Shown: piece by piece, positions 4,611-25,217 of the stretch
Position numbering within the stretch: the first letter of the stretch is position 1
How the letters are laid out: the number at the start of each line of letters is the position of its first letter
From: Acridotheres tristis
Lineage: Eukaryota > Chordata > Aves > Passeriformes > Sturnidae
Length of the DNA: 64,000 nucleotides
Direction of reading: 5' to 3'
Assembly (NCBI GenBank): GCA_037013685.1
Contig: CM072891.1
Coordinates: 20,994,501-21,058,500, forward strand
Made by a program: the position numbers and the translations under genes
Notes under the pieces: model-generated
The model's database searches: none
What the model was told of the DNA's origin: nothing
Seen by the model: only the letters and a program-made list of their open reading frames with translations

Positions 4611-4638
4611 CGTGCTCGGCGCTGGCGGCTGCTGCCAT
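4611..4638 (-). CDS. CARS1: First coding exon, candidate cysteinyl-tRNA synthetase 1 (CARS1), partial
   Basis: On the minus strand an ATG at 4638 opens M-A-A-A-A-S-A-E-H-G and meets a donor (CACG then gtaggtgg) at 4610. The exon is 28 bases long and ends in phase 1. Human CARS1 has a similarly short first coding exon ending in phase 1. The exon sits in a CpG island. The assignment rests mostly on position: in mouse the order is Cars, Tnfrsf26, Tnfrsf22, Tnfrsf23, Osbpl5, and here the next genes are TNFRSF copies and then OSBPL5 in the same orientation. CARS1 charges tRNA-Cys in the cytosol. No catalytic motif lies in this exon, so the identity is inferred rather than seen. Confidence 0.55.
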
Positions 4639-4764: not shown

Positions 4765-5065
4765 GCCCGGCCCGGCCCCACACCGCACCGACCCGCCCCA
4801 CCCCGCACCGGCCGGCCCCACACAGCCCCTCACGGCCCGGCCCCACACCGCACCGGCCCGCCCCACACCGCACCGGCCGGCCCCACACAGCCCCTCACGG
4901 CCCAGCTCCACACCGCACCGCCCCATTTGGCACCGACCCTCCCCCTCGGGGCCCCACACAGCCCCTCACGGCACCGACCCTCCCCTCACGGCTCGGCTCC
5001 ACACCGCACCGACCCTCCCCCTCGGGGCCCCACACAGTCCCTCACCGCACCGACCCGCCCCACAC
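4765..5065. repeat. GC-rich minisatellite upstream of the candidate CARS1 promoter
   Basis: Imperfect tandem repeats of units such as CCCCACACAGCCCCTCACGG and CCACACCGCACCG recur many times with order-shuffled submotifs. The array abuts the promoter of the exon at 4611-4638 and creates long spurious proline/histidine/threonine-rich open frames. Confidence 0.75.
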
Positions 5066-5160: not shown

Positions 5161-5617
5161 GCCGCCAGAAAAAGGTCCCAGAGTCCGTTTTCCATGTCAG
5201 ACAGGCTTTTATTGCTTCGACATAACGGCACTGAGCAATCCCTTCAAAATCGAAACCAAAAAAAAGGATCACAATACTCTCTCAAAAACAGCAGCCGACT
5301 CTTGGTCCCCACCAGGTTTGGGCAGCGGAGCAGCGCCACGCACTAAGGGATGCCCGACCTCCTGGCGCCTAAGTGAACATCCGGCACCAGAGTTTAATAT
5401 TGCACAACTCAAAGGTAGGCAGGACATGTAAACACGAAAATAGCAGAGCCATTACATCCCTGCCGGCTCTCTGCAAGAGGTGAGGGTGTCAATTCCATTT
5501 CTACCAGCACTTTCTGACACCCTCATTTAAAGGAAGTCTGAAGACACACATATGTACAGAGGAACATTTTTGCAGTTCATCACAAATATTAATCTTCAGT
5601 TTCTACTTATAATGTTG
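5161..5617 (-). other. Downstream flank of receptor unit A
   Basis: No gene is seen. A minus-strand AATAAA occurs near 5205-5210 and could serve receptor A transcripts. From about 5474 the sequence resembles that starting at about 16679, marking the start of the tandem duplication unit. Confidence 0.5.
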
Positions 5618-5839
5618 TTACCTTTTAAAGTGTTTGACATATTGTAATATCCACATCTTATACACCTCAATGCATCCAGTAAATTAATAATACATTATTG
5701 CTTTCTCAGTCTGTTTCTCCAGAGGAGAAGCATCTGATAGAATTGCTCTCTATTCTTAGGAATAAGTAATAGTAGAATAAATAATAGAATAAATAATAGT
5801 AGAATAGTACAAAAAATAATAGAAGTAATTTTCTCAGTA
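5618..5839 (-). pseudogene. Death-domain vestige of receptor A
   Basis: Beyond the stop a second frame contains PKNREQFYQMLLLWRNRLRK, the family's conserved helix 4/5 motif (REQFYQML..W), then a stop, then a third frame resembling a LLDAL helix. An AT-rich microsatellite (about 5758-5828) has expanded between the two halves. The exon is decayed, with a frameshift, stops and the insertion. Confidence 0.7.
5758..5828. repeat. AT-rich microsatellite inside the death-domain vestige
   Basis: Irregular repeats of (A)ATAATAGAAT and AGTAGAATA lie in the middle of the decayed death-domain exon. The matching place in unit B (about 16960-16975) has only one short AATAATAG, so the array arose in unit A after the split. 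Confidence 0.75.
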
Positions 5840-5928
5840 TCATTTTCCTGTAGCTGAGCTTTTCATAAGCCGCCCACACTGCTGTGGTAGTTCTTCCTCT
5901 ATAAAGACATCAGAGGGTTCTCTCAGTT
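5840..5928 (-). CDS. Receptor A exon 9: start of the death-domain exon, prematurely stopped
   Basis: The acceptor gtttcttcttgcag opens ELREPSDVFIEEELPQQ, then CGRLMK, a recognisable death-domain helix-1/2 start. An extra base after ATGAAAA (compared with unit B) then shifts the frame into a stop at 5840-5842. The predicted protein therefore ends just inside the death domain. Confidence 0.55.
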
Positions 5929-8900
5929 CTGCAAGAAGAAACACACAGCAAACATTAGCTTGGCTTTTAAAACAGAAGGGTTTCTTTCCATAGCCCACAT
6001 ACATACTTTCCCCTTAATTTTCAGCCAATACCTGCACAGACCAAACAGCAGCAGCAAGGAAGGGTTTGGCACCTAAGAAGCAGCAGGACAAACAGGTTTT
6101 CTACTAAGGGGTCTTGAAATTAGCTAAAGGTGTTGGTGCACATCTCAGAAGTGATCGCCTAAGGCAGGGTACCATCCAGTAAAGGTGGTTTAGAGAAAGG
6201 CTTCATTGGTTGGTATGTTTCTTTGGCAGGGCTACTAAATAGGAAGTTTTAACCACTTCACTATGCTGCTGGCATAGGTTTGACACAACAAGACCACCAT
6301 TACAAAATCCATCACTTGGACACAGCACAACAATTTGCAGGGTACAGGTGGATGTGTGGGAGTTTCATGTGCTCTTCCACGTGAGGGGATATTTGACAGA
6401 GAGATCTCTCACTCTGACATACACCTCATTCAGTAGAGTAGACTATACTGCTGCAATGCAGACTTGTTTTAAAATTTCTTTCCAAAATTTGTACCGTTCT
6501 TATTCTTGAAGTCATGGCTACACTCTACTCCCATGCAGAAAAGTCATGCTCCAAAGTAAAACAGTTCACCACCAGCATTACAAATGCAGCAATAATCTTG
6601 TTTCAGCATATTTTACAATAAACTGGAAGCCTTATAGCTCTAAGCAATATTCATTAGCCTCTTTATACTACTCTGTAAGTCAACTAAAGTCAACAGGAAA
6701 TAAAAAACCAAGTCCCAAGTACTGCCAATATATGGAATACTTACCACTTGGAGAGAGATCTGTAGCAATTATCTGACTTGGTTCTTGTACCTGTAATACA
6801 AAATTGGACCATTACTCCAACAAAGCAGGGTGCTTCACTCACAATCATTTGTTACCTACTGACAGCTTGCTTTTACAGCATACACAGCAAAAAGGGGAAG
6901 GGGGACAGATCTCAGAGCAGACCTGAAAGTACTGGAGTAAAGAAAATTGCATGGTGCAAAAAACACACGACTGGCTCCAAGGCAGCATTCGCTGCTATCA
7001 CAAAAGGGTAGCTTCTGTCAGGGAGATCAAAGAGGCAGAGTAAATTAAATGAGGGATTGAAGATTTTTTTCCCCCCAAGATAGCACTTTCCATGCTTCCT
7101 ATTACATCTTTAAGGCAAAGTTTCCTCTATTGTTTTGCCTGAAAGCTCTAGGAATAGTTAAGAGCTCAACTGAAGGCATACCAACATTAGAGAAAATACA
7201 ATGATAATTTCACACAGATACAGTGCTTACAACTTGCTGGAGTTCTGCTTGGAACATTAGGGCATTCCACTGAAAAGAAGAACTCTGGGCAGGTTTTGCT
7301 GCCAATGAGGGCTTAGCAATTCTCCTCAACCATGCTGTCATACAGCACTTCCAGCTCCTGCATGGGCCAGTGCCCTGCCCAGAGACCACATTATTTTCCA
7401 CTACTTCCTTCTAGGGAAAGAAAAGGAAATACTTGAAGACATCAGATATCAGAGAAATGAAAGGAGAGCCCTTAATTTGGCAAAATTGTGGCCTTCACAG
7501 AATTAGACTTCAAATGGTTTTAGAGCCTGACTCTCCACCTCCCTGGCTGTTCTGCACCCACCAGACTGCAGGGTAAGGCTCACAAGTTACCTCCACATCA
7601 ACCACAGGAAATTTTCCTATTATTTTTACTGATGTAGATTGCTTCTTGCTCCCCCTCTGGGTACAGAGGGTAGGTACCCCTCCTAGGACAGGAGGCAATC
7701 AAATTGCCTTGCTGAGCTCTTAACAGCACCAGGGGCCTCTGGCCTAGTACTATGTCAAGGCTGATTCTCAGAACTGTTGCTACATATCCTGTCAGCTTTA
7801 TGGAAGTACACTGCCTTGGGCTGTCTGTGGCTGGATTAGCTTTCCTGGAGATTCACGAACTACAATCAGCTGAAAGAAGCTAGTGAGCACCCATGTAAAT
7901 TGCATAGCTTTTGTGAGGGGACAAAGTTGGAAGCCAGCAAGAAAGGCTCCCTTCGTTTTTGGCATTGTCAATTCATTAAACAAGCATAGCCAGCGAGTAC
8001 AGCACCAGTCAGCATGAACAGTACAAGCACGAAGCAGAGGCACATGTTTAGCATGACTAATAGTGCTAAAGCTGGCAAGCTTTAGAAATATGTTTATACA
8101 TGTGGAAAATACCTGCCCCTGAGACTTGTGTTTACTAAGGTGCAGTCCCCCTACAAGCATAAGCCAGCATGTTTTCTGCTTACACAGGGACAGTAACCCA
8201 AAGTGACACGAGCCCCTGACCAAGGGGCAAAAGCAGGGACATAAGGGAGAACCCCCCAAATATCACACAGGTAGTTGTGTATCGTTCCCACTGAAAACAC
8301 TATCTGTTTAAGGGTAGAAACACATTAAAGAAATTGATCTTATTTATACAGGACAATTCTTAAACAGGAAAACAAATGACTGGAAGAGCAGAGCACGGCT
8401 GACACTTTTGTTTCAAAATCCAGCATCAGCTATTCAAGTATCAGCAGTTGTTGGAGGCATTAGAGCAGTATGAACTCGCTGATTCTTGGGAGGAAAGGTG
8501 TGTAGTTGCCAAAATACTCGGATTCAGGACTGCATCACTGTACCACTCTCCTCAGCAAATAAGCTCTTATAGAAGCACAAGCACTCCAAGTGCAGACTTT
8601 GTACCTGCCTGTGGCAGCTCTTACATGAGAGAATTTTCCATGCACCAGCCATGCACCAGTTTATAACTGCATCATTCTACAACCACTTTATTCAAATTAA
8701 AGAGATGTTCCATTTGCCTATTCCTATGGCACAGCATTTTGACCAGGGTTTTTTTCACATTTCTTCATCAGCTTCTACAAACAGATGAAGTGCTGCAAAT
8801 CTGGCCAGGGCGTGAGGGGGAACACAACCCAACAAAAAAACCAGGGTGTGTCACATATTTGAGCCACTTACGGACCTTAAAAAAGAAAAAGAGGAAAGTT

Positions 8901-11900
8901 TAGGGCGAGCTTTTGAACATCTCTTTCAATTCTGTTTCTTCAGTCTTCAAGTATTTTTGACAAAATTAAAATGCATTTAATTACTTAATGTCTAATTAAT
9001 AACATTAGAAAAGAGTGCATATACTAGGTGGGTAATGCATGGGTGAAGGACAAGAGAAGTTGCACGGAGAAAGAAGTGCTGTACACACACTGAGAACAGT
9101 CTGGATTTTTTTCATAGTTCCTCATCAAGACTAACGTTTGTTGTGTAAAACTAAGCTCATTTTTGCCTTGTGGTGCTGGTAGGGATGGAGCTTGACTAGA
9201 GAACCTAAAGCTAGCTCACATTTACTTTATTCAGTTTTGTATTTATCTTGCAAAAAGCTAGACTAGTGATAGGTTTCTTCAGACTCAAACAGCAAGGTTG
9301 TGAAATAGTGTTTGACTACAGGATGCCAGGGTTTAACCAGCTTCAAGTTAGAACATATGCCAGCAGCCAGCCTCAACTGGATAAACCCTTTTTAGGGATG
9401 GACTTTGGGACTGGCATACTCTGAGCCCTGAACCCCTCCTCTTTTGGGACTGCTTAAGACCAAGAATTTAGACTGTCAGGTCCTGGTCTGTAGCTTGTGA
9501 CATGAGCCCAAAGCAGGAAGACTCAAGCACTTGACTGGATCAGGAGTGGTTAAGTCTTATGAACAATAATTTGTAGTCACAATGCAATGAGAGCTCAAAC
9601 ACCACCATGCAGATAAACAATAGCTGCCATCAGTTGGGGAATACACATGTGAAGCAGCAAAAACTAAATGAATTGGTCTAAAGTATCACTTGGAGACAGT
9701 CTAAAGTAAAAACCTGCAGCTAGTCCAAGATTTTTCCCCGCTTCCAAAGCATCCTGGTCAGAGGCTCTGAAATGTTTCCAGGTATTAACAAGGCCAAGTG
9801 CAGCAGACACATGCAGATATTGAATGCATCAGGCAATTGCTAATTAACATTGGACCTTGTATGAATCACAACTTGTTGCATCACAGGAACACATCCTACC
9901 AGAGATCTACAGAGAGAGAAACATGGAGGGCTGTGTATCAGGTACAATTAGACTGAGATGAAACACTTGATCCATCACATACTTACCAGACCCCCCTCTG
10001 CAACTTTATCAGTTAAGGCAGCTGAAAAACAAAAGAAGGGTCTAAGAAACCAAGGAATTGCAGCAACTAAAACATGGCTGAATTCACACAAGACATACAT
10101 GGAATAGAAAATTTTGTAGCACAGCAAAGCTTTAAAAGCCATTTAGTTTCTTTGACCTATCATGCATTTCACCACAGTACTACCCTTAGCTTCTACCAAC
10201 AACACAAACATTGTGCTAACTCTAATACAGAAAAGAGTCCTGCTTAGTAAAATGCAGACAAGATGCAGTTCAGCTGTTAAGCCACTCTTGCAACCTCCTC
10301 TCCTCCAGCTTGTGTTTCTCAGCATTGTTGCAGGCTATTGCAATACAGAAGGCAGAAATGGTCTTTACTGCAATACAATCAGTAAGACATAGTTTCAACA
10401 AACTTAGCATTTAAATCTGAGAATAATTTTCACACAAGTAGCAAAAACTATTGAATACACAGCAGTGAAAATAGAAGTTTCCAAGGAAAACAGCTCAGTT
10501 TCCACTAAAAAAATAAATTCACACAGGACTTAACAGTCACATGAAGAGGTTCAAATGACTAAAGGGTACCAATTAGTAGAAAAAAAAAAATCTCCAAAGC
10601 CAAACACAGTGAAAGTAGTTAGTGATCTAATTAGTTACTATTTTTTGCCCCATGTATCGGATCCACACACAGGTTTTTCAACTTGGCCAGTACAAGGCAA
10701 GTAGATTGGAGAATTCCTTTTTCAGGATCTTACAGTAATGTTGCTTTGAAGCAGAGACATCAGTCACCAAGATAAGAAAGCTCATTGTAAAATATTATGC
10801 ATTTATTTACCAAACAAAACTACTCTTCATTTTACATGATTCGCTAATTTCAAATCACATGCTAAATGAACTAAAGCTCACACAGGCGCCTTGTAAGGCA
10901 ACACAAGAACCAGGGAGAGCCGGAGTGCATACTCTGCCTAACTCTGGAAAGCAAATATCATGGATACTAATAAAGAAGTTACCTTTATCACGCTTCAGCT
11001 TTTTAAGAACAGCAAGAAGAACAATTAGCAAAAACAAGACAGACAGAGCCACAAAAATCCAAACAAGAGGGCTCCTCCCTGCAAAATAAGAAAAACAAAA
11101 TTAGTACTGAAACAGTTCCCCAAAAATATATTCCTTACAGTCCTAGAGAAAAACCTAGGCCCAAACCAAAACAACAACCCAGACAGTTCGTCCTGGAAAA
11201 GGCACTGGGACTCCCTAGCTCCCTGAGCATGTAAGTACTTGTTTGCACTGCACATCACGATTCCAAAGGCAGCAGGGAATTCTGCAGAGAGCTGCAATAC
11301 AACTTCTACAAGGTTTTCTGAGAGACACTTAAGGGGAGGTAAGTCTGCAAGATAAGATGATAACAAGCTTCAGGTGCTGTAGCATGGACAGTGCACGTTC
11401 CTAGCAGAAGAGTCAACATCTTTGCACTACCCATAACTTTCAACTGTGCCACCTTTGAAACTTGAAGAACCCTGGCAACACATGTAGCTTTTCACCAAGT
11501 GAAACTTAAGGTGGTTTGTCCCTTTAACACCTTTGAGAACTTGTCATTAGCAAGTGACTCCCAGACTAAAACGCAGCTGCTGTTAAATATGTTACAGCAG
11601 TTGAAAACACTGTTTTACAGACTGCCCTGATGTTATTAACCCGAAGCCACAGACCCAACAAAACAAGCTGAGTGGGATTTGTGTGCCAGACCTTGATTGG
11701 GTACGCCTGTGTCCGTAGCATCAGTGGAATTCTGCAAGATTTCTTTGCCGCCCGGATGCCTGAAGTGGATGGGAACACAAGGTTGTATCAACATTGCCAG
11801 AGCAATACATAGCTCTGCCCAGGCCTGGTTCTTTATCAGACACAGCTTAGAACCATAAGTGGGACGTGCATAAACTTTGATAGAAGTGCACCTTTAAACA

Positions 11901-14846
11901 ATCCAAGATAAGACTACAAAATAAAAATAAAAGCAAAGCAGATAAAATTCATGTATGTTAGCTTCTAAGAGCAGGGGGGCAAACAAAACCACTGAGTACA
12001 GGCATTACTCATGCACACTAAGTTTCCTTCAACAGGCAGTTCTAAATCCCAAACTTTTCAGCTGGGTGTGAGAAAGTTCATTCAAGTGTGTTTCTGGGGA
12101 AATACCAACATGAAGACAAAAAATGCAAATTTACAACCATAAGCAACAAGCACAGCGATACCCAAGTCCATGTCTTTCTAGGACTCAACATCACAGGTTT
12201 TAACACCTAAAACTTAAATGCATGAATAATGCCATTTGGTTTCAGGGCAATTACTTACAGCCTGATGATGTGTTAGCTATTGCCACAGATTGGGCCACAG
12301 CTCTAGCACTGCCTAGAAGGAAAATAGCGACTTATTCTCAAACTTACCTTGGACTGTTTCTCTCACATATTTCACAGGCCTCATCAGCACACGAATACCC
12401 TTGTTTGCACTGGCATTCAGCATCCCGTGTCCGAGTACAGGGACTCAGGGTTATCTGATCTAAAAAGAAAATATAAGTTAAAAAGTGCAAAGATTATACT
12501 CAGGCCATAAAGGCAATTTACTTTTACGTTCAATATGCTCCATGAAGACCAGGTTTTCCACATTAAAAAAGGGGAAATGGTTAAAGGTTTCATCAGGATT
12601 CATAAGGTTTGGTACCTTCTTTGCACTGTCTGCAAGGCACGCATCCCTCCAAGCCATTTGCATGGGCAGTAAAGCCTTTTCCTTCCTTGCAAGGGTCACA
12701 TTTTCCTCTCAAATGGGAAGCACTGCAGTGATCAGCAACAAAAGTACCTGTGGAAGAAGAGAAATAGCAGCAATCTCAGGAGAGCTTTAGACAGACAAAG
12801 GGGCTAAACCAGGATATTCAAACACACATTACTGGGGAGAGGTCAACCCTTCCTTGCAAATCCGTGCCACAAGAACCGAGCAGCACGGGAGAGGCAGGAG
12901 GCACATTTGCAATTGGCCACTCAGACAGGGAGAGGTGCAAAAGGAGGCATCCAGCAAGGCCTCAGCTGGGACAAGGATGAGTCACTGCAGTGGATGACAC
13001 CATGGCTGAAGCAATAGGGCATGCCCACAGAAAATTGCTTTCAATTAACTCTTTTCCTCCTTTGTCTGAATCCCACCTCAATGCACCATAAGCTTCTGAT
13101 ACTAAGGAGAGGTTTCTTCTTGGTACAAAACTTGTTAACTCTACCACACCTTGAGCATGGAGGAGAAAGCAAAACCATACTGAAGTATTGCCTACAGACA
13201 CAGAAATAGTAGAATTCCTGTAGCACTAACTAAATCACTTGACTTCAAAAACTTGATCCTCAACCACAAGCAGAGGCTTCCTGGCTCGATGCCAAAGCAC
13301 CTCTCCCAGGCATCTCCTGTTACATTAAGGGGGTCTCACTACAAACAGCACCAAGAACTCATCATAGCTCCAATCAGGCTTACACTTTCACAGGATGCAA
13401 CATAAGAAACAATAGCTATCAGCTGTAATGCTCAAAGCCTTACCTGCTTCACACAATACACAACAGAGACCTTCGTGGGGATACTCACTCTCCCCACAGC
13501 TCGCTTGGGCTCCAGGCATGGTCAGCAGCACAACCTACAGAGCAGGCAAAGAGGCATCTTGAGTGATTCATCCTCCCAGGACACGATAACCACCTTGAGA
13601 ACATGAACTTGTAAAGACTTGGAAACACATTCAGAAGTTCGTGGGAAGCCACAGAGGAAACCCAAACTAATTTCTGCTAAGTGCTCCTCACAGCAGTAAT
13701 TGCCATCACAAAACTGCGGTTAAGGCAGCACCACACAGCGGCTGATGGAATTAAGGCAACGATTGCCACACATTCCTGCCTTCATGTAAACTTGCTTTCC
13801 GTCTACTAGATCACTGCATTTGAACTGCAGGCGTCAAAGTTTCTGCAGCGCGCAAGGGATTCCTTTCTCCCTTCCCCCATTTCTAAATTCATCGGTGCTA
13901 GTCTCGCTCCAGCAAAGCTGAGGAAACGCTCCACATACAACACGTTCCACTGGCTCTAATTTTAGGCAGACGGCAAACCGAGTCATCAACAGCGCTACTT
14001 CAGGAGCATTGGGAATGATTTTTTTTTTTTTTTTTTTTAATGCAAAAGAAGCATGCAGGTCGCGCACTCGCCGGCAGCGCTCCCGCGTAGGCGCCTCCGC
14101 AGGGCGGGGGCAGGTGCTTCCAGGGAGGCGAGCGCAGGTTCGTTCATTCCCTGCGCTCAGGGACACCTGAGTCACAGCCCTCACAAGGCTCACACGAGAA
14201 AAACGTCTAGAACAAAAGCAGGAGAGGAAGGGGCGGCCGCCGAGCGCCCCGCCACTAATTGCCACCAGCGGGCAACTTCTAAACTAAAACCAAGAGGGTC
14301 CTGCTCTTTATATTCTCCCACTGGTAGACTGAAAACCTTCCCTGTAACTGTGGGGAGGTGGGATAGTTAAAGAACATGAGGACTATTAAAGAACTCACTC
14401 CTGACTTGTAACTTTTTTTTTTTTTTTTCTCCGAGGAGAGGCGGAATGCGGCAGCGGCGAGTGAGCGAGGATGCAAAGCCGTGAAATGTGCCGGCATCCC
14501 TGAAGGGCGCTGAGTTAGCGGCAGCCGCAGGCTTCCCGGGACAAACACGTGTCCGCGCCAAACACGGACAAAAAGTTCGGGAAAGTTACTAAAGTCTCTT
14601 GAAGAAGAAAGGGGAAAGAAAAGAAGAAAACAAGAAAAACCCAGAAGGGCTCCCTCCCACGAGAGCTGTAGGAAGACTTTTTGCCCCTCAAAAAGCTAAA
14701 TTTACGTTCTGGCTGCGGACGGCTGACAGCCGGCACTCACAGCGGGCAGGCGGAGGGCGAGCCCGTACCTGCAGACGGTGGCCGCGGCCGGAGTCCCACC
14801 CAACACTCACCTGCAACAGCAGCCCCAGCGCTCGCCCGGCTCCCAT
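5840..14846 (-). CDS. TNF-receptor-superfamily gene A, decoy-like (TNFRSF22/23/26 or TRAIL-receptor type), whole locus
   Basis: The model joins nine minus-strand exons: 14811-14846, 13489-13534, 12616-12747, 12348-12459, 11692-11759, 10983-11078, 9987-10021, 6745-6790 and 5840-5928. Every junction agrees in phase and the total is 660 bases, giving 219 residues plus stop. The order is signal peptide (1 to about 22), two cysteine-rich domains, a cysteine-free third domain, a transmembrane helix (about 135-157) and a tail of about 60 residues. Cytoplasmic exons of death receptors normally end in a death domain; here the last exon starts in the right place but hits a stop after 29 codons, so signalling through FADD is not expected. 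By family it should be a surface receptor for a TNF-type ligand, most likely TRAIL-like, acting as a decoy or weak signaller. The ligand is not shown by the sequence. No transcript evidence is available. Confidence 0.75.
5943..7269 (+). repeat. Inverted repeat arm 1 (contains receptor A exon 8)
   Basis: The reverse complement of this 1.3 kb stretch is found at 17096-18399 with high identity, including exon 8 and its splice sites. It covers the intron on both sides of exon 8 and stops about 14 bases before the exon 9 acceptor. Confidence 0.85.
6745..6790 (-). CDS. Receptor A exon 8: short cytoplasmic exon
   Basis: The acceptor is ttttgtattacag and the donor gtaagtat. It encodes VQEPSQIIATDLSPS in phase 0 and ends in phase 1. 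An intact copy of this exon, including both splice sites, lies inverted at 17576-17621. Confidence 0.65.
7270..9986 (-). other. Receptor A intron between exons 7 and 8
   Basis: No convincing exon is seen on either strand. Open frames at 7210-7401 and 7798-8259 lack family motifs. The lower-coordinate end (up to 7269) is the sequence repeated in inverted orientation in unit B. Confidence 0.6.
9987..10021 (-). CDS. Receptor A exon 7: short cytoplasmic exon
   Basis: This 35-base exon has a strong acceptor (cttttgtttttcag) and a perfect donor (gtaagt). In the frame set by exon 6 it encodes AALTDKVAEGGL and ends in phase 0. Small cytoplasmic exons before the death domain are usual in this family. 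Confidence 0.65.
10983..11078 (-). CDS. Receptor A exon 6: transmembrane helix
   Basis: After the acceptor ttttgcag the exon encodes RSPLVW, then a run of about 20 hydrophobic residues (IFVALSVLFLLIVLLAVL), then the basic stop-transfer KKLKRDK. This is a type I membrane anchor. The donor is gtaact, phase 1. Confidence 0.85.
11692..11759 (-). CDS. Receptor A exon 5: degenerate third cysteine-rich domain
   Basis: The exon reads HPGGKEILQNSTDATDTGVP then NQ in the frame fixed by exon 4. It aligns with the usual PGKEILQNCTxxTDTxC pattern of death-receptor third repeats, but every expected cysteine is replaced, including the one before T and the one after DT. NST forms an N-glycosylation sequon. 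The donor gtctgg is weak, phase 1. The near-identical exon in unit B has the same losses. Confidence 0.65.
12348..12459 (-). CDS. Receptor A exon 4: cysteine-rich domain 2
   Basis: This exon encodes a cysteine-rich module with SPCTRTRDAECQCKQGYSC followed by DEACEICERNSPR. CTRTRDxxCQC is the classic TNFR core (compare CTRTQNTKCRC in FAS). The acceptor is ctttttag and the donor AAG then gtaagttt, phase 2. Confidence 0.88.
12616..12747 (-). CDS. Receptor A exon 3: cysteine-rich domain 1
   Basis: After a pyrimidine-rich acceptor this exon encodes S-TFVADHCSASHLRGKCDPC, continuing through CKEGKGFTAH and GLEGCVPCRQCKE. The cysteine spacing and the GF-TAH-NGLEGC motif are typical of TNFR repeats, closest in look to FAS and TRAIL receptors. 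The donor is gtacca (weak) in phase 1. Confidence 0.85.
13489..13534 (-). CDS. Receptor A exon 2: rest of signal peptide
   Basis: The acceptor tctgtag precedes VVLLTMPGAQASCGE, and the donor follows as gtgagtat in phase 1. VVLLTM completes the hydrophobic core, and AQAS followed by C is a plausible signal-peptidase site region. Confidence 0.7.
14811..14846 (-). CDS. Receptor A exon 1: signal peptide start
   Basis: ATG at 14846 encodes MGAGRALGLLLQ and stops at a consensus donor (CTGTTGCAG then gtgagt), phase 0. Together with exon 2 it forms a hydrophobic leader. The ATG lies in a CpG-rich promoter. Confidence 0.75.
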
Positions 14847-15110
14847 GGTACTGGCCACGGCTTTGCACGCTCCCAGGCCGGGCCGTGCGGGTTTTGTAGC
14901 GCCGCAGGTGAAGGGAGTGGCTGGGCGGCCCCGCCTCTGCCGCTCCGCAGGAAATGGCCTCATTTATCTCTGCTTTTTGTGATCAGGGTGGGCAGCTCTT
15001 CAGCACCTGAGTTTCAGGTGCAGATGGAAAGGCTGTAAGGAGAATTTTTTCAGAAGTGCGTAAACGAAGTGAATGTAACTGGGTTTTCTAAAGCTCTAAA
15101 AGGGTTCTCA
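14847..15110 (-). promoter_or_regulatory. Promoter of receptor A
   Basis: GC-rich sequence immediately upstream of ATG 14846 contains a GC box (GAGGCGGGGCC) and a TTTCCTGCGG motif. From about 14862 to 15110 it differs strongly from the matching part of unit B, although both sides are nearly identical between copies. Confidence 0.6.
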
Positions 15111-16539
15111 CGTTTCTCCTCAGCAGTTATTCCTCCCAGAGAAATAAACTTTTTGGCCGTGATTTTCCTTGAAAATACTTTTCATTTCCCATGTAACTGG
15201 CATGTAGGAACATTGACCTCCAGATACTGAAATTGGATTGAAATTGATAGTATATGGATTCATAGGCTGTTCCTTTTGGGATTACTTTTTAATCCTCTGC
15301 GGCAGCAGCCCTAAACTTTGGAAACTCTTCTCCTGCTGATGCTTAATTAACTTGTATGGGTTGATCGTTTCTTTCACTGAACTGCTACTCTTGTGGTAAC
15401 AGCACTTATTTTACTTAACTGCATTTAGAAGTCTCAGTGAAATCCCTGTGAGTGCATAGTTCAGTAAAATGGAAATAACCCAAACAATTTCCTGCACTCA
15501 CATTTACACCTGCTGAAGGCTTCCTGCTCGCCACTGCTCTCTTTGGTTCAGGGGAGCTTGAGTTGTTTGGTTTTTTTTCCTTGGGTTATTGTTTGGTAAC
15601 CATTTCCCAAAGCCAGGATGCAGTTGTACCCAAGGGATGTAAGCAGCTCTAGAGAAGTGGAGAAGCTCCTATCCATAACTCAAACACATGGTCCCAAAGC
15701 AGGATGAGTCTGATGAGGAAGGCTGTGCTGACAGGCTGGAGATGTGCTGACTTGCTGAAGCATTCAAAGGAGAGATCACTGGATGTGTTTGCACAGCTTT
15801 ACATCCAAACACTTGGATGTATAGGAACTTCGAGGCAAACACTTTGAAGCTGCACGCAGGACTTGGCACAGCCTGGCAGGCAGAGGTAACAGCCTCTCAC
15901 TGAGTTTTACACCACATATGGCACAGGTCAGACTTCCTCAGAAAAGGTGACTAGGATGACATCTTTCAAAAAGGCATTCAGTGTGGATCACTAATGTTGA
16001 TATTTTTCAAGGATGAAGAATACTTTGGTTTTCTGCAGACTTTTGCTAATAACAAAGCCACTCTCACCCTTTTCTATTTGTGATCAGTTTCCTGAATGTC
16101 AGCTTCCAGATACTGCCTGTTCATATCAGAGAGCTGCAGTTCTCTCTGTGGAACAATCTATTCACTATCCTCAAGTCCTTGATATAAAAGTTCCCCAAGT
16201 CCAAAACAAGTTGTTGCATTTGCATGTACAACAGTGAAAATCAAGGGAACCGCTTCTCCATCTGTGGAAGTTGCTAAAATTATAAGAGAATTTCTGTGGG
16301 AGGATGGTTTGTAAGAACTGTGCAGAAGGCAACTTTCCCCCATGAATTACAGCTGTATTGATTGTCGAGGAGTGGAAACCTTGCCTGTCCGATGAGGATG
16401 GTTGTTAAGAGCGGGTTAGCTGGTCAACAGTTAGTTGGAGTCTGCTGGCTGTGAGTAGGAAGGGACAGGTTAGGTTTAGCCGGTCATGCAGAAGAAAGAA
16501 GGAAACTCTCAAAGAGAAAGAGGGAAAGAGTCAGTGCTG
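15111..16539 (-). other. Upstream spacer of receptor A
   Basis: No gene is seen. It is about 99% identical by eye to 23280-24700 in unit B up to about 16343, then increasingly different. Confidence 0.6.
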
Positions 16540-16680
16540 TGTGGAGCTGGCTGCTTGCGAGGCAGGAATCAGGAATGGCTCAGTGCTGGGTTTGCAGGGT
16601 GCTGCCCCGCCCACCTGTGAGGGCAAGCATGTAGCTGCCTGGGGGCTGCGTTTGTGAGGATGCTGGCAAGCACAGAGCCG
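16540..16680. repeat. Short GC-rich minisatellite upstream of receptor A
   Basis: Imperfect units containing CCCGCCCACCTGTGAGGGCAAG and GCTGGCTGCTTG-like motifs are related to the larger array at 24775-25190. It forms the upstream boundary of unit A. Confidence 0.6.
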
Positions 16681-16790
16681 GGTGTCAATTCTATTCCTAC
16701 TAGTCGTTTCTGACACCCTCATTTAAAGGAAGTCTGAAGACACACATATGTACACAGGAACATTTTTTCTGTTCATCATAAACACTAATC

Positions 16791-16796
16791 TTTATT
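16791..16796 (-). promoter_or_regulatory. Poly(A) signal of the unit B death-domain vestige
   Basis: AATAAA on the minus strand lies 15 bases after the vestigial stop codon. The equivalent site in unit A has been mutated (AACTGAAG context), so that copy lost its original signal. Confidence 0.5.
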
Positions 16797-16810
16797 TTCT
16801 ACTTAAAATG

Positions 16811-17073
16811 TTATTGCTTTTTAAAGTGTTGGATATGTTGTAATAAGCCTCCATATTTTATACGCTTCAATGCATCCAGTAACTTAATAAGAGATCGTTG
16901 CTTTCCCAGTCTGTTTCTCCAGAGGACAACCATCTGATAGAATTTTTTCTATTATTAGGAAATGTAGAAATTATTATCTCAGTATCATTTTCTTGTAGCT
17001 GAATTTTCATAAGCTGCTCACACTGTTGTGGTTCTCCCCCTATAAGAGAGCCCATCAAAAGGCTCTCTCAGTA
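16811..17073 (-). pseudogene. Death-domain exon vestige of receptor unit B
   Basis: After an acceptor (cttgcag) the sequence resembles receptor A exon 9. One frame holds EQLMKIQLQENDTEI, typical of death-domain helices 2-3. After a one-base deletion a second frame holds FYQMVVLWRNRLGK and then LIKLLDALKRIKYGGLLQHI, ending HFKKQ and a stop at 16811. This copy keeps more of the domain than unit A, but has at least two frameshifts and no upstream coding exon in the right orientation. It is the clearest evidence that the ancestor was a death receptor. Confidence 0.8.
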
Positions 17074-17095
17074 CTGCAAGAATTCTTCTCAGTAG

Positions 17096-18399
17096 AATGC
17101 CCTGTCTAATGTTCCAAGTAGAACTCCAGCAAGTTGTAAGCACTGTATCTGTGTGAAATTATCATTGTATTTTCTCTAATGTTGGTATGCCTTCAGTTGA
17201 GCTCTTAACTATTCCTAGAGCTTTCAGGCAAAACAATAGAGGAAACTTTGCCTTAAAGATGTAATAGGAAGCATGGAAAGTGCTATCTTGGGGGGAAAAA
17301 AATCTTCAATCCCTCATTTAATTTACTCTGCCTCTTTGATCTCCCTGACAGAAGCTACCCTTTTGTGATAGCAGCGAATGCTGCCTTGGAGCCAGTCGTG
17401 TGTTTTTTGCACCATGCAATTTTCTTTACTCCAGTACTTTCAGGTCTGCTCTGAGATCTGTCCCCCTTCCCCTTTTTGCTGTGTATGCTGTAAAAGCAAG
17501 CTGTCAGTAGGTAACAAATGATTGTGAGTGAAGCACCCTGCTTTGTTGGAGTAATGGTCCAATTTTGTATTACAGGTACAAGAACCAAGTCAGATAATTG
17601 CTACAGATCTCTCTCCAAGTGGTAAGTATTCCATATATTGGCAGTACTTGGGACTTGGTTTTTTATTTCCTGTTGACTTTAGTTGACTTACAGAGTAGTA
17701 TAAAGAGGCTAATGAATATTGCTTAGAGCTATAAGGCTTCCAGTTTATTGTAAAATATGCTGAAACAAGATTATTGCTGCATTTGTAATGCTGGTGGTGA
17801 ACTGTTTTACTTTGGAGCATGACTTTTCTGCATGGGAGTAGAGTGTAGCCATGACTTCAAGAATAAGAACGGTACAAATTTTGGAAAGAAATTTTAAAAC
17901 AAGTCTGCATTGCAGCAGTGTAGTCTACTTTACTGAATGAGGTGTATGTCAGAGTGAGAGATCTCTCTGTCAAATATCCCCTCACGTGGAAGAGCACATG
18001 AAACTCCCACACATCCACCTGTACCCTGCAAATTGTTGTGCTGGATGTCCAAGTGATGGGTTTTGCTTGTGGGGGTCAGCCTAGCAAAGTGGTTAAAACT
18101 TCTTCTTCAGTAGCCCTGCCAAAGAAACATACCAGCCAATGAAGCCTTTCTCTAGACCACCTTTACTGGATGGTACCCTGCCTTAGGCGATCACTTCTGA
18201 GATGTGCACCAACACCTTTAGCTAATTTCAAGACCCCTTAGTAGAAAACCTGTTTGTCCTGCTGCTTCTTAGGTGCCAAACCCTTTCTTGCTGCTGCTGT
18301 TTAATGCAGGTATTGGCTGAAAATTAAGGGGAAAGTATGTATGTGGGCTATGGAAAGAAACCCTTCTGTTTTAAAAGCCAAGCTAATGTTTGCTGTGTG
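17096..18399 (-). repeat. Inverted repeat arm 2 (opposite orientation to arm 1)
   Basis: This is the reverse complement of 5943-7269. It sits between the death-domain vestige of unit B and an LTR-like insertion, so part of the old receptor B 3' half is flipped here. Short indels and substitutions relative to arm 1 are visible near both ends. Confidence 0.85.
17576..17621 (+). pseudogene. Inverted stray copy of receptor exon 8
   Basis: The same 46-base exon as 6745-6790, with intact acceptor (tattacag) and donor (gtaagtat), lies on the plus strand. It is opposite to the receptor genes and cannot be spliced into either. Confidence 0.8.
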
Positions 18400-18502
18400 A
18401 CAGAACACAACACAACACACATCAGAGGGCTCTCTCAGTTCTGCAAGAACAATTAACAAGCCAAGAACAATAAACCCAAGCCAAACAGAGCCAGAATAAC
18501 CC

Positions 18503-19115
18503 TGTCCTGGTTTGAAAGACAGGTGTCTGCCAGGGAAAGCAGGGCCCTCCTTTGAAATGGAGAAAATAAATCCTCTCCTTCTGAACTAATATAATTTTGA
18601 AATTAAGGGGCTCTCAGGAAAAGATATGAGGATAGGAATAACCGTTCTTTACTAGTATATATATAAGGCAAATAAATAACAACAAGTCTGGAATTAACAA
18701 GAAACAGAGCAGTAATCCAGTTCTCTCAGCCGCAGGCATTTTTACCTTTGGTGCAGTTACAGTTAGAGCCAGCTCCTGATGGGCAGGTACGATAGTCCCC
18801 ACGTGGCTGCAGGGACGCTGGAGTGATGGTAGCTCTGTCCCAGACAGGAAGGGATGGAGGAGAGGAGGGACGCTTGTAAACAGCAAGCTGAAAGCGGGAG
18901 GGCATTCCAGCAGGGTAGGAGTGTGGGGTCCAACAGCAGAGAGGCAGCTCCTGGCGTTGGAGGGTAGTGTTACCAGCGACCGTCCTTCTCCAAAGCCAAG
19001 AGCGAGCAACTGCCCCCCATCACTCTGTTTTTCCCTGCTTTGAATCTCGGGGCATCCCCCTCCCACCTCTGAGAGAAATACTCAAGAAAACAGGCAGTTT
19101 ATCCTGCCCTAGTCT
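18503..19115. mobile_element. Probable passerine LTR insertion in receptor unit B
   Basis: It begins TGTCCTGGTTTGAAAGACAG, which I recognise as an end of a songbird endogenous-retrovirus LTR, followed by the AT-rich and then GC-rich body typical of that group. The stretch is absent from unit A. The far end and target-site duplication are not clear, and no retroviral coding sequence is visible. It replaces the region where receptor B exons 6-8 would be expected. Confidence 0.55.
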
Positions 19116-19146
19116 CAAGGACTAACCATCAGTGCTTCTTAGCATG

Positions 19147-19223
19147 TCAATGGGAAAAAAACTTCACAGGCAAAGAGGAAAGGAAAAACAAACCCCCCAC
19201 AAACCCAAAAAGAGCTCTTGTCC
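19147..19223 (-). CDS. Receptor B terminal exon: diverged hydrophobic anchor and stop
   Basis: The acceptor tttgcag is shared with receptor A exon 6. In the fixed frame it reads GTRALFGFVGGLFFLSSLPV, then KFFSH and stop. Parts of the DNA still line up with the receptor A transmembrane exon (a tccctgcaaa border, agagct and acaaacc blocks), so this is probably a strongly diverged version of that exon rather than an unrelated one. The short hydrophobic tail with no cytoplasmic part suggests GPI attachment or a minimal anchor. Confidence 0.55.
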
Positions 19224-22200
19224 CTGCAAAGTAAGAAAAACAAAATAAAATTAGTACTGAAACAGTTCCCCAAAAATATATTCCTTACAGTCCTAGAGAA
19301 AAACCTAGGCCCAAACCAAAACAACAACCCAGACAGTTCGTCCTGGAAAAGGCACTGGGACTCCCTAGCTCCCTGAGCATGTAAGTACTTGTTTGCACTG
19401 CACATCACGATTCCAAAGGCAGCAGGGAATTCTGCAGAGAGCTGCAATACAACTTCTACAAGGTTTTCTGAGAGACACTTAAGGGGAGGTAAGTCTGCAA
19501 GATAAGATGGTAACAAGCTTCAGGTGCTGTAGCATGGACAGTGCACGTTCCTAGCAGAAGAGTCAACATCTTTGCACTACCCATAACTTTCAACTGTGCC
19601 ACCTTTGAAACTTGAAGAACCCTGGCAACACATGTAGCTTTTCACCAAGTGAAACTTAAGGTGGTTTGTCCCTTTAACACCTTTGAGAACTTGTCATTAG
19701 CAAGTGACTCCCAGACTAAAACGCAGCTGCTGTTAAATATGTTACAGCAGTTGAAAACACTGTTTTACAGACTGCCCTGATGTTATTAACCCGAAGCCAC
19801 AGACCCAACAAAACAAGCTGAGTGGGATTTGTGTGCCAGACCTTGATTGGGTACGCCTGTGTCCGTAGCATCAGTGGAATTCTGCAAGATTTCTTTGCCG
19901 CCCGGATGCCTGAAGTGGATGGGAACACAAGGTTGTATCAACATTGCCAGAGCAATACATAGCTCTGCCCAGGCCTGGTTCTTTATCAGACACAGCTTAG
20001 AACCATAAGTGGGACGTGCATAAACTTTGATAGAAGTGCACCTTTAAACAATCCAAGATAAGACTACAAAATAAAAATAAAAGCAAAGCAGATAAAATTC
20101 ATGTATGTTAGCTTCTAAGAGCAGGGGGGCAAACAAAACCACTGAGTACAGGCATTACTCATGCACACTAAGTTTCCTTCAACAGGCAGTTCTAAATCCC
20201 AAACTTTTCAGCTGGGTGTGAGAAAGTTCATTCAAGTGTGTTTCTGGGGAAATACCAACATGAAGACAAAAAATGCAAATTTACAACCATAAGCAACAAG
20301 CACAGCGATACCCAAGTCCATGTCTTTCTAGGACTCAACATCACAGGTTTTAACACCTAAAACTTAAATGCATGAATAATGCCATTTGGTTTCAGGGCAA
20401 TTACTTACAGCCTGATGATGTGTTAGCTATTGCCACAGATTGGGCCACAGCTCTAGCACTGCCTAGAAGGAAAATAGCGACTTATTCTCAAACTTACCTT
20501 GGACTGTTTCTCTCACATATTTCACAGGCCTCATCAGCACACGAATACCCTTGTTTGCACTGGCATTCAGCATCCCGTGTCCGAGTACAGGGACTCAGGG
20601 TTATCTGATCTAAAAAGAAAATATAAGTTAAAAAGTGCAAAGATTATACTCAGGCCATAAAGGCAATTTACTTTTACGTTCAATATGCTCCATGAAGACC
20701 AGGTTTTCCACATTAAAAAAGGGGAAATGGTTAAAGGTTTCATCAGGATTCATAAGGTTTGGTACCTTCTTTGCACTGTCTGCAAGGCACGCATCCCTCC
20801 AAGCCATTTGCATGGGCAGTAAAGCCTTTTCCTTCCTTGCAAGGGTCACATTTTCCTCTCAAATGGGAAGCACTGCAGTGATCAGCAACAAAAGTACCTG
20901 TGGAAGAAGAGAAATAGCAGCAATCTCAGGAGAGCTTTAGACAGACAAAGGGGCTAAACCAGGATATTCAAACACACATTACTGGGGAGAGGTCAACCCT
21001 TCCTTGCAAATCCGTGCCACAAGAACCGAGCAGCACGGGAGAGGCAGGAGGCACATTTGCAATTGGCCACTCAGACAGGGAGAGGTGCAAAAGGAGGCAT
21101 CCAGCAAGGCCTCAGCTGGGACAAGGATGAGTCACTGCAGTGGATGACACCATGGCTGAAGCAATAGGGCATGCCCACAGAAAATTGCTTTCAATTAACT
21201 CTTTTCCTCCTTTGTCTGAATCCCACCTCAATGCACCATAAGCTTCTGATACTAAGGAGAGGTTTCTTCTTGGTACAAAACTTGTTAACTCTACCACACC
21301 TTGAGCATGGAGGAGAAAGCAAAACCATACTGAAGTATTGCCTACAGACACAGAAATAGTAGAATTCCTGTAGCACTAACTAAATCACTTGACTTCAAAA
21401 ACTTGATCCTCAACCACAAGCAGAGGCTTCCTGGCTCGATGCCAAAGCACCTCTCCCAGGCATCTCCTGTTACATTAAGGGGGTCTCACTACAAACAGCA
21501 CCAAGAACTCATCATAGCTCCAATCAGGCTTACACTTTCACAGGATGCAACATAAGAAACAATAGCTATCAGCTGTAATGCTCAAAGCCTTACCTGCTTC
21601 ACACAATACACAACAGAGACCTTCGTGGGGATACTCACTCTCCCCACAGCTCGCTTGGGCTCCAGGCATGGTCAGCAGCACAACCTACAGAGCAGGCAAA
21701 GAGGCATCTTGAGTGATTCATCCTCCCAGGACACGATAACCACCTTGAGAACATGAACTTGTAAAGACTTGGAAACACATTCAGAAGTTCGTGGGAAGCC
21801 ACAGAGGAAACCCAAACTAATTTCTGCTAAGTGCTCCTCACAGCAGTAATTGCCATCACAAAACTGCGGTTAAGGCAGCACCACACAGCGGCTGATGGAA
21901 TTAAGGCAACGATTGCCACACATTCCTGCCTTCATGTAAACTTGCTTTCCGTCTACTAGATCACTGCATTTGAACTGCAGGCGTCAAAGTTTCTGCAGCG
22001 CGCAAGGGATTCCTTTCTCCCTTCCCCCATTTCTAAATTCATCGGTGCTAGTCTCGCTCCAGCAAAGCTGAGGAAACGCTCCACATACAACACGTTCCAC
22101 TGGCTCTAATTTTAGGCAGACGGCAAACCGAGTCATCAACAGCGCTACTTCAGGAGCATTGGGAATGATTTTTTTTTTTTTTTTTTTTTAATGCAAAAGA

Positions 22201-22998
22201 AGCATGCAGGTCGCGCACTCGCCGGCAGCGCTCCCGCGTAGGCGCCTCCGCAGGGCGGGGGCAGGTGCTTCCAGGGAGGCGAGCGCAGGTTCGTTCATTC
22301 CCTGCGCTCAGGGACACCTGAGTCACAGCCCTCACAAGGCTCACACGAGAAAAACGTCTAGAACAAAAGCAGGAGAGGAAGGGGCGGCCGCCGAGCGCCC
22401 CGCCACTAATTGCCACCAGCGGGCAACTTCTAAACTAAAACCAAGAGGGTCCTGCTCTTTATATTCTCCCACTGGTAGACTGAAAACCTTCCCTGTAACT
22501 GTGGGGAGGTGGGATAGTTAAAGAACATGAGGACTATTAAAGAACTCACTCCTGACTTGTAACTTTTTTTTTTTTTTTTTCTCCGAGGAGAGGCGGAATG
22601 CGGCAGCGGCGAGTGAGCGAGGATGCAAAGCCGTGAAATGTGCCGGCATCCCTGAAGGGCGCTGAGTTAGCGGCAGCCGCAGGCTTCCCGGGACAAACAC
22701 GTGTCCGCGCCAAACACGGACAAAAAGTTCGGGAAAGTTACTAAAGTCTCTTGAAGAAGAAAGGGGAAAGAAAAGAAGAAAACAAGAAAAACCCAGAAGG
22801 GCTCCCTCCCACGAGAGCTGTAGGAAGACTTTTTGCCCCTCAAAAAGCTAAATTTACGTTCTGGCTGCGGACGGCTGACAGCCGGCACTCACAGCGGGCA
22901 GGCGGAGGGCGAGCCCGTACCTGCAGACGGTGGCCGCGGCCGGAGTCCCACCCAACACTCACCTGCAACAGCAGCCCCAGCGCTCGCCCGGCTCCCAT
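19147..22998 (-). CDS. TNF-receptor-superfamily gene B, tailless decoy-like receptor, whole locus
   Basis: The model joins six minus-strand exons: 22963-22998, 21639-21684, 20766-20897, 20498-20609, 19842-19909 and 19147-19223. All phases agree and the total is 471 bases (156 residues). An in-frame ATG at 23010 would add M-A-S-T. The extracellular part looks identical to receptor A. The last exon replaces the transmembrane and cytoplasmic exons with a 17-residue hydrophobic stretch, a basic residue and a stop (about 25 codons). Such an end could be a GPI-attachment signal or a bare membrane anchor, so the product should bind ligand without signalling, as decoy TRAIL receptors do. Whether it is expressed is unknown, and the ligand is inferred from family only. 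Confidence 0.7.
19842..19909 (-). CDS. Receptor B exon 5: degenerate third cysteine-rich domain
   Basis: Same sequence as receptor A exon 5, with the same missing cysteines and the NST sequon. It ends in phase 1, which fits the following anchor exon. Confidence 0.62.
20498..20609 (-). CDS. Receptor B exon 4: cysteine-rich domain 2
   Basis: Same sequence as receptor A exon 4, including the CTRTRDAECQC core and splice sites. Confidence 0.85.
20766..20897 (-). CDS. Receptor B exon 3: cysteine-rich domain 1
   Basis: Same sequence as receptor A exon 3, with all cysteines retained and the same splice sites. Confidence 0.82.
21639..21684 (-). CDS. Receptor B exon 2: rest of signal peptide
   Basis: Same sequence as receptor A exon 2 (VVLLTMPGAQASCGE) with conserved acceptor and donor. 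Confidence 0.7.
22963..22998 (-). CDS. Receptor B exon 1: signal peptide start
   Basis: Encodes MGAGRALGLLLQ as in receptor A, with the same donor. Unlike A, an upstream in-frame ATG at 23010 exists (GCCATGGCCAGTACCATGG), because A has CCGTGG where B has CCATGG. The start could therefore be four codons earlier. Confidence 0.72.
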
Positions 22999-23010
22999 GG
23001 TACTGGCCAT

Positions 23011-23280
23011 GGCTTTGCACGCTCCCGTGGCGCTCGGCCTGTTTCCGGAGGGGGTGTGGGGAAGTGGCTAGCTCCGAGAGGCGGGGCAGAGGCCCCGGAG
23101 CGCTGCCGACCATTCTTTGCCGCTCTGGTGCTTCCAGAAACCGCAGGAAATCTCCATTTGTATATGTGCTGCCCATTCTGATCACGGAAAGCAGAGGGAA
23201 AGGCTGTAAGCATTAGTTTTCCAACAGTGTGTAAATGAAGCGAATGTAGCTGGGTTTTCTAAAGCCTTAAAAGGGTTCTC
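23011..23280 (-). promoter_or_regulatory. Promoter of receptor B
   Basis: A GC-rich promoter differing from that of A over about 200-260 bases. It includes GC boxes (GAGGCGGGGC on the opposite strand) and a kappaB-like decamer GGAAATCTCC at 23146-23155; the corresponding A sequence is GGAAATGGCC. Flanking sequence on both sides is nearly identical to A. Confidence 0.6.
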
Positions 23281-24774
23281 ACGTTTCTCCTCAGTACTCC
23301 TCCCAGAGAAATAACATTTCTAGCCATGATTTTCCTCGAAAATACTTTTCATTTCCCATGTAACTGGCATGTAGGAACATTGACCTCCAGATACTGAAAT
23401 TGGATTGAAATTGATAGTATATGGATTCATAGGCTGTTCCTTTTGGGATTACTTTTTAATCCTCTGCGGCAGCAGCCCTAAACTTTGGAAACTCTTCTCC
23501 TGCTGATGCTTAATTAACTTGTATGGGTTGGTCGTTTCTTTCACTGAACTGCTACTCTTGTGGTAACAGCGTTTATTTTACTTAACTGCATTTAGAAGTC
23601 CCAGTGAAATCCCTGTGAGTGCATAGTTCAGTAAAATGGAAATAACCCAAACAATTTCCTGCACTCACATTTACACCTGCTGAAGGCTTCCTGCTCGCCA
23701 CTGCTCTCTTTGGTTCAGGGGAGCTTGAGTTGTTTGGTTTTTTTTCCTTGGGTTATTGTTTGGTAACCATTTCCCAAAGCCAGGATGCAGTTGTACCCAA
23801 GGGATGTAAGCAGCTCTAGAGAAGTGGAGAAGCTCCTATCCATAACTCAAACACATGGTCCCAAAGCAGGATGAGTCTGATGAGGAAGGCTGTGCTGACA
23901 GGCTGGAGATGTGCTGACTTGCTGAAGCATTCAAAGGAGAGATCACTGGATGTGTTTGCACAGCTTTACATCCAAACACTTGGATGTATAGGAACTTCGA
24001 GGCAAACACTTTGAAGCTGCACGCAGGACTTGGCACAGCCTGGCAGGCAGAGGTAACAGCCTCTCACTGAGTTTTACACCACATATGGCACAGGTCAGAC
24101 TTCCTCAGAAAAGGTGACTAGGATGACATCTTTCAAAAAGGCATTCAGTGTGGATCACTAATGTTGATATTTTTCAAGGATGAAGAATACTTTGGTTTTC
24201 TGCAGACTTTTGCTAATAACAAAGCCACTCTCACCCTTTTCTATTTGTGATCAGTTTCCTGAATGTCAGCTTCCAGATACTGCCTGTTCATATCAGAGAG
24301 CTGCAGTTCTCTCTGTGGAACAATCTATTCACTATCCTCAAGTCCTTGATATAAAAGTTCCCCAAGTCCAAAACAAGTTGTTGCATTTGCATGTACAACA
24401 GTGAAAATCAAGGGAACCGCTTCTCCATCTGTGGAAGTTGCTAAAATTATAAGAGAATTTCTGTGGGAGGATGGTTTGTAAGAACTGTGCAGAAGGCAAC
24501 TTTCCCCCATGAAATACAACTCTACTGATTACCAGAGTGGGGAAATAGCCTTACCTGTCCAATGACGGTGGGTGTTATAAAAGTGTGGTTTAGCTGTCCA
24601 TCAGTTAGAGTAGGAGATGGAATGTGCTGGCTGTGCTGTAAAGAGGAAGGGACATGTGGTCGTGCCGGGGACGGTCAGGTGGCCGGTTACGGGACAGGTT
24701 AGGTTTAGCCGGTCATGCAGAAGAAAGAAGGAAACTCTCAAAGAGAAAGGGGGAAAGAGTCAGTGCTGTGTGGA

Positions 24775-25190
24775 GCTGGCTGCTTGTGAGGCAAGGAAGG
24801 AGTCCGTGTAGGGTTTTGGGGCTGGCTGCTGCCCTGCCCGCCTGTGAAGGCAAGCAAGGAGGAAGCAGCCAGTGCTGGGCTCTGGGCCGGCTGTGCCGTG
24901 CCCGCCTGGGAGGGCGAGTGGGGGCAACCGTCAGTGCGGGGCTGATGAAGGGGCTGACTGCCCTGCCCGCCTCTGAGGGCAAGCAGGGCGCGGCCAGTGC
25001 GGGGCTGATGATGCAGGTGACGGCTGCCCTGCCCGCCTGTGAGGCAAGGAAGGAGTCAGTTCCAGGGTTTTGGGGCTGGCCGCTGCCCACCTGTGAGGGC
25101 AAGCCGGGCGCGGCCAGTGCGGGGCTGATGGTCGGGCTGGCCCGCCTGTGAGCCAAAGAAGGAGTCAGTGCTGTGCAGCCAGCTGCCCGT
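24775..25190. repeat. GC-rich minisatellite upstream of receptor B
   Basis: About five to six imperfect units of roughly 70-85 bases share CCCTGCCCGCCTGTGAGG, GGGCGCGGCCAGTGCGGGGC and GGAAGGAGTCAGTGCTG-like blocks. It is an expanded relative of 16540-16680 and generates spurious long open frames on both strands. Confidence 0.75.
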
Positions 25191-25217
25191 GATGAAATTC
25201 AAACTGCTATTGCTGTT

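Follow-up and report, generated by a model that had tools for sequence, protein, structure and literature searches.

Two TNF receptor superfamily (TNFRSF) genes lie head to tail on the minus strand of the window analysed here (the whole stretch of DNA, 64,000 nucleotides from Acridotheres tristis), flanked on one side by what is probably the first exon of CARS1 and on the other by exons of OSBPL5/8 type. We put at about 0.6 the probability that they are duplicates of a TNFRSF23-type receptor whose death domain was broken in both copies, with copy 1, the one nearer CARS1, kept as a decoy-like receptor; copy 2 lies farther from CARS1. The proposed event is a lineage-specific tandem duplication of an avian TNFRSF23-type death receptor sited between CARS1 and OSBPL5, and recent gene conversion between the copies would have left identical tracts. 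The sequences show that the family's usual form bears a death domain, that this domain is broken in both copies and that the extracellular halves are intact and identical. The 225-residue receptor of copy 1 would bind its TNF-family ligand but set off no cell death, thereby acting as a decoy or dampener. Copy 2 would amount either to a remnant or to a decoy that is soluble or short. The initial annotation made the right observation and read it reasonably as decoy-like; the correction is that this is a death receptor with a broken death domain, not a member of an inherited decoy cluster. The pair offers a sequence-level example of how a decoy could originate, the binding half being kept while the death half decays, at a locus where decoys may have arisen independently in rodents and songbirds.

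The receptor pair and its neighbours

The flanking genes are represented by two features.

4611..4638, minus strand: probable CARS1 coding exon 1 (MAAAASAEH plus one G), with ATG, GT donor and phase 1, inside a G+C-rich island
31486..42409, minus strand: OSBPL5/8-type exons encoding a sterol-binding domain, with Oxysterol_BP above the Pfam cut-off

CARS1 is recognisable in the window through its first coding exon only. The end and phase of this exon match mammalian CARS1 starts (MAGSSAEH, MAGAAGGEQG), the first residues of which often end in ...AEH or ...EQ ahead of the next exon. The named proteins in the CARS1 protein search (best 120 of 1,467 matches) included no bird. The gene had been called likely, and this resemblance to mammalian starts makes it probable, not proven. 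G+C-rich minisatellite arrays with periods of ~20, 41, 45 and 65 bp are located just upstream of the probable start (4767-5065). For the OSBPL-type exons the best solved chain was ORP8 (289.7 bits), which assigns the gene to the ORP5/ORP8 pair with the two not separated; the ORP5/ORP8 type is clear. In pig, one part of PMC12189728 lists CARS1 and OSBPL5 consecutively. Searching the whole window by tblastn with five relatives as queries (E up to 0.05) gave no third TNFRSF copy, and an Rfam search of the window returned 0 matches.

The exons of copy 1 ahead of the death domain are as follows.

14811..14846, minus strand: exon 1, start of the signal peptide
13444..13534, minus strand: exon 2, end of the signal peptide and first cysteines
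12616..12747, minus strand: exon 3, cysteine-rich (TNFR_c6)
12348..12459, minus strand: exon 4, cysteine-rich (TNFR_c6)
11692..11759, minus strand: exon 5, stalk, cysteine-free although aligned to what is the third cysteine-rich repeat in other birds
10983..11078, minus strand: exon 6, transmembrane, 100% to Sturnus P0001
9987..10021, minus strand: exon 7, membrane-proximal tail
9850..9906, minus strand: optional exon ISGRMCSCDATSCDSYK, also included in some of the other oscine models, 94.7% to Prinia P0003
8768..8875, minus strand: alternative last exon encoding no death domain (VRKWLKYVTHPGFFVGLCSPSRPGQICSTSSVCRS, stop), followed by a nearby AATAAA
7258..7410, minus strand: cytoplasmic exon region, matching Haemorhous model P0007
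6745..6790, minus strand: exon ahead of the death-domain exon

Copy 2 has the following counterparts and rearrangements.

22963..22998, minus strand: exon 1
21594..21684, minus strand: exon 2
20766..20897, minus strand: exon 3, cysteine-rich
20498..20609, minus strand: exon 4, cysteine-rich
19842..19909, minus strand: exon 5, stalk
19147..19223, minus strand: exon 6 as now readable, a diverged membrane exon to a stop (TRALFGFVGGLFFLSSLPVKFFSH)
18503..19190: putative solo-LTR-like insert in the membrane exon (TGT...ACA, 5-bp target duplication)
17083..18399: inverted copy of 5942-7279, found by self-comparison

Exons 1-4 and the stalk are letter-for-letter equal between the copies (14846-11692 in copy 1, 22998-19842 in copy 2), with AG/GT ends where needed. 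Superfamily membership follows from TNFR_c6, which scored 37.2 bits against a Pfam cut-off of 29.4; the signal peptide was read directly from the sequence. The tandem pair with intact signal-peptide and cysteine-rich exons described initially is thereby confirmed.

Intact and broken halves of the two copies

Each copy carries the remains of a death domain in its last exon, visible on three-frame reading.

5602..5928, minus strand: copy 1 death-domain exon, broken by a frame change, a 54-base A/T-rich insertion and a stop codon, core Trp changed to Cys
16795..17073, minus strand: copy 2 death-domain exon, disrupted by several frame changes, with the same Trp to Cys change

The cytoplasmic death domain usual in avian TNFRSF23 is thus found only as broken remnants. 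Pieces joined across the breaks scored 25.4 and 28.2 bits for Pfam Death (cut-off 22.6), and database proteins with an intact domain align to both. The core Trp, invariant in 9/9 aligned death-domain relatives, has become Cys in copy 1 and copy 2 alike. No open death domain is left in either copy, in line with the first description of the pair, but both keep the exon in pieces, which that description did not report. Some lesions are common to the two copies and others private to one, which suggests a domain impaired ahead of the duplication and subject to separate decay afterwards, an order that we infer from the lesions.

The extracellular half of copy 1 can still be joined to an end free of the death domain. 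Exons 1-7 connect in frame to 8768-8875, giving 8 exons and 225 residues with AG/GT ends where required, and the best 19-residue hydropathy of the membrane helix is 3.17. Across its 675 coding bases the model contains 0 lesions, against an expectation of ~4 at the rate of the copy 1 death domain (2 in 327 bases, leaving the in-frame insertion aside; P ~0.016); with both death domains pooled (5 in 604), P falls to ~0.004. This post hoc test is based on few lesions. As read from these exons, copy 1 can still encode a clean 225-residue type I membrane receptor. The sole substitution near the gene start (14858 / 23010) turns an upstream in-frame ATG into GTG in copy 1, and Sturnus keeps that ATG.

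The terminal exon of copy 1 is 97% identical to the tail of Sturnus vulgaris P0001, and a tail of this type without death domain occurs in the predicted models of 6/23 oscine cluster representatives, Sturnus included. A tail almost unchanged between window and Sturnus, and recognisable in that many oscine clusters, would also suit a copy 1 that signals by recruiting another partner through this short end instead of acting as a decoy. The tail is only 35 residues long, and we regard a signalling role as improbable.

In copy 2, the LTR-like (solo LTR) insert probably interrupts the membrane exon. It spans 688 bases and was chosen from three TG..CA/duplication candidates, the other two having 4-base duplications; a 5-base target duplication could in itself arise by chance. 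Beyond the insert, the sequence resembles the rest of the copy 1 membrane exon (72/101 aligned bases over both flanks), and the far-flank match score was reached by 1/500 shuffles. The counterpart of exon 6745-6790 is reversed at 17576, and the copy 1 segment at 7.3-11.0 kb has no counterpart, so that ~3.8 kb is missing. The hydrophobic end that can still be read has a best 19-residue hydropathy of 1.69; a GPI anchor there is a guess. Lacking a usable membrane exon, copy 2 can at most encode a tail-less or secreted ectodomain, and it looks damaged enough for a pseudogene. Beside the inverted segment, the opening bases of the death-domain exon recur at 18419-18450 as a stray duplicate, seen by eye.

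This damage raises the alternative that both copies are decaying pseudogenes of a death receptor that has become dispensable in this lineage, the cysteine-rich exons of copy 2 having been passively overwritten from copy 1. The broken death domains are consistent with such decay, as are the insert, inversion and missing exons of copy 2 and the many oscine relatives that have no death-domain motif (16/23 cluster representatives). Against it stand the lesion-free 8-exon model of copy 1, a terminal exon common to other songbirds and the almost identical predicted protein of Sturnus. We consider general decay unlikely, though it is the most credible of the competing explanations, and favour a copy 1 kept as a decoy-like receptor.

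Relatives and the origin of the death-domain-less state

Two protein searches, the first cut at 1e-3 and the second at 1e-8 with scoring limited to the 7,996 candidates that had most words in common, yielded at least 97 distinct proteins. The best match was a Sturnus vulgaris TNFRSF23-like protein (P0001, 229 aa, without Pfam death domain), with 98% identity over the ectodomain. An ectodomain tree of 36 rows placed the window beside Sturnus (support 100/97) and inside the oscines. Two oscine rows were left out of this tree, 8/68 non-oscine birds were used, other clades were represented only by a fish receptor and one TNFRSF10B-like protein, and the positions of the long-branched rows (elephant, Peromyscus, coelacanth, Catharus) should not be relied on. 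Search and tree agree in grouping the window with bird proteins named TNFRSF23/26 and not with another TNFRSF clade, the check that had been proposed for the pair.

By a simple motif test, the death-domain motif was found in 59/68 non-oscine bird clusters and 7/23 oscine clusters (5 of the 7 complete), being absent from 9/68 and 16/23, respectively; since the rows are cluster representatives and predicted isoforms, these are not counts of losses. The difference gave a Fisher p of 8e-7, for rows that are not independent. Pfam Death was detected in chicken (P0056), turtle (P0091) and coelacanth (P0096), and a death domain is tagged in a second turtle. Among oscines, the Cyanistes model seems to leave frame inside the death domain, and the Serinus and Haemorhous models stop within it.

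Avian TNFRSF23 proteins such as chicken P0056 share with the window genes the ectodomain layout and, where the remnants allow comparison, the death-domain exon. In chicken TNFRSF23 the cytoplasmic part is long and Pfam recognises a death domain; the window differs in having two genes, a broken death domain in each and a third repeat devoid of cysteines. In this third cysteine-rich repeat, cysteines are lost in the inspected oscine models that reach it, except for two corvids (P0042, P0095) that keep two; more are kept in the other birds inspected. TNFRSF23 is alternatively spliced in chicken ovary, according to a passage of PMC3532176 citing Bridgham and Johnson 2004, and its chicken expression is tabulated in a section of PMC4694067; avian TNFRSF23 bearing a death domain, with variants, was thus already known. 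Titles and abstract openings from part of the literature on Tnfrsf22/23/26, avian TNFRSF23/OSBPL5, passerine death receptors and TRAIL-receptor evolution yielded no report of a starling-type duplication.

The position of the pair recalls the mouse cluster, in which we take the order to be Cars, Tnfrsf26, Tnfrsf22, Tnfrsf23, Osbpl5. The comparison with these tandem receptors, which lack a death domain and lie between Cars and Osbpl5, was made by gene order, and the matches listed in the two protein searches included no mouse sequence. Mouse DcR1 corresponds to Tnfrsf23 and DcR2 to Tnfrsf22, as given in a portion of PMC6826877. A further mammalian trace was found in the African elephant (Loxodonta) CARS1 model P0189, in which TNFR cysteine-rich repeats (residues 1-78) are joined to CARS1. 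This piece was most similar to quail TNFRSF23-like (53%), followed by kiwi (50%), chicken (49%), coelacanth (49%), a fish hematopoietic death receptor (44%), Sturnus (43%) and Peromyscus TNFRSF10B-like (34%); its best solved match was TRAIL-R1. It suggests that this afrotherian has a TNFRSF23-like gene next to CARS1, drawn into the model by read-through or by faulty joining during annotation. A CARS1 model that opens with cysteine-rich exons indicates that the neighbourhood exists in a non-rodent mammal, a chimeric model of this kind speaking for adjacency and not for function.

The neighbourhood shared with the mouse cluster and the elephant exons joined to CARS1 are what favour a decoy cluster inherited from the common ancestor of birds and mammals, one of the two origins put forward initially. 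That origin is contradicted by the death domains of most non-oscine birds, two turtles and the coelacanth, which make the state without death domain a derived one, and by the differently broken remnants in the window. It would further require separate gains of the domain in birds, turtles and coelacanth. We treat an ancient shared cluster as ruled out by these relatives and remnants, with a negligible residual probability.

The other origin put forward, that decoys arose twice at one site, fares better. Its bird side is supported by the relatives with death domains and by the remnants, and its mammalian side is made plausible by the elephant piece with ~50% identity to avian TNFRSF23. Separate duplication and loss in the mouse cluster and in the window is the best reading. 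A receptor doubled, with both death domains lost, would mean that the mouse decoy site has yielded decoy-like receptors a second time, and such an independent second origin is probable from these comparisons.

More tentatively, and with somewhat less than an even chance of being right, songbirds may have repeatedly made decoys of the CARS1-OSBPL5 death receptor. An isoform with a conserved terminal exon free of the death domain would have come first, followed by independent erosion of the domain in several lineages; in a starling lineage a second gene copy would have been gained, and gene conversion would have preserved identity between the ligand-binding halves as the signalling ones decayed. 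If this is true, one chromosomal site yields decoys convergently, in songbirds as in rodents. Intact and broken versions of one receptor are spread across bird genomes, making loss of the death domain and its causes testable over a large clade.

The term TRAIL decoys, used initially for the receptors of the mouse cluster, can be applied to the pair only tentatively. With a family profile, the best solved ectodomains were those of TRAIL-R1/R2 (70.9-60.8 bits), with HVEM (61.0) and CD27 (60.4) close behind. A single window-based query instead ranked CD27 first, and CD27 and NGFR above TRAIL-R1, while the nearest solved death domain, both to the family profile and to the turtle member, was that of TNFR1. 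The ectodomain is accordingly a likely relative of the TRAIL receptors; the death domain may or may not be one. The anatomy of a TRAIL decoy, an intact cysteine-rich ectodomain with no functional death domain, is present in the pair, and it is by this anatomy that the label can be suggested. Human TRAIL-R3/R4 (TNFRSF10C/D), whose locus and origin are separate from those of the CARS1-OSBPL5 receptors, offer a comparison for how such genes may work, as membrane-bound receptors without a functional death domain. They are described as membrane-bound and as proteins that 'lack a functional death domain' in the relevant part of PMC6826877.

Near-identical tracts between the copies

Self-comparison gave 99.5% identity over 3.8 kb (11049-14874 vs 19195-23026), 96% for 15020-16434 vs 23191-24608, 87% for 16462-16629 vs 24691-24856 and 96% for 5942-7279 vs the inverted 17083-18399; the 3' piece of the pair is 82-86% identical. 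Homology of this extent, 3.8 kb at 99.5% and further segments at 82-96%, is not due to chance. Three tracts stand out.

11097..14857: longest near-identical tract, 3,761 bp, with 1 substitution and 2 poly-T length differences
15435..16346: 912-bp perfect tract in the 5' flank, common to the copy 2 flank
6447..7246: 800-bp perfect tract, inverted in copy 2

These tracts sit within flanks of ~80-98% identity (windows up to 250 bases). The pattern fits several recent gene conversions between the copies, as we infer from the alignments, and homogenisation during assembly could also be its source. In that case an assembly artefact, either a retained haplotig or a consensus borrowed between paralogues, would account for the identical tracts if not for the whole pair. 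Such an artefact might leave a single substitution in 3.76 kb, as here, along with poly-T length differences and perfect tracts of 800 and 912 bp. Alleles, however, would not show 84% identity in the death-domain region, nor would an inversion, an insert and the absence of ~3.8 kb from one of them set them apart; nor would they have promoter-side blocks of 145 and 164 bp that BLAST leaves unmatched. The window contains no N. With identity ranging between ~80% and 100% along the pair, and with inversion, insert and deletion separating the copies, a retained haplotig is unlikely. We judge an artefact of either kind to be rather unlikely, slightly less so than a signalling copy 1, and prefer gene conversion between true duplicates.

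The two unmatched blocks (14875-15019 and 23027-23190) lie at the 5' ends of the near-identical genes, and the copies may accordingly differ in regulation. Upstream of copy 2, a 65-bp tandem repeat (24824-25048) overlaps the stretch related to 16462-16629, which lies upstream of copy 1; it may have helped the duplication.
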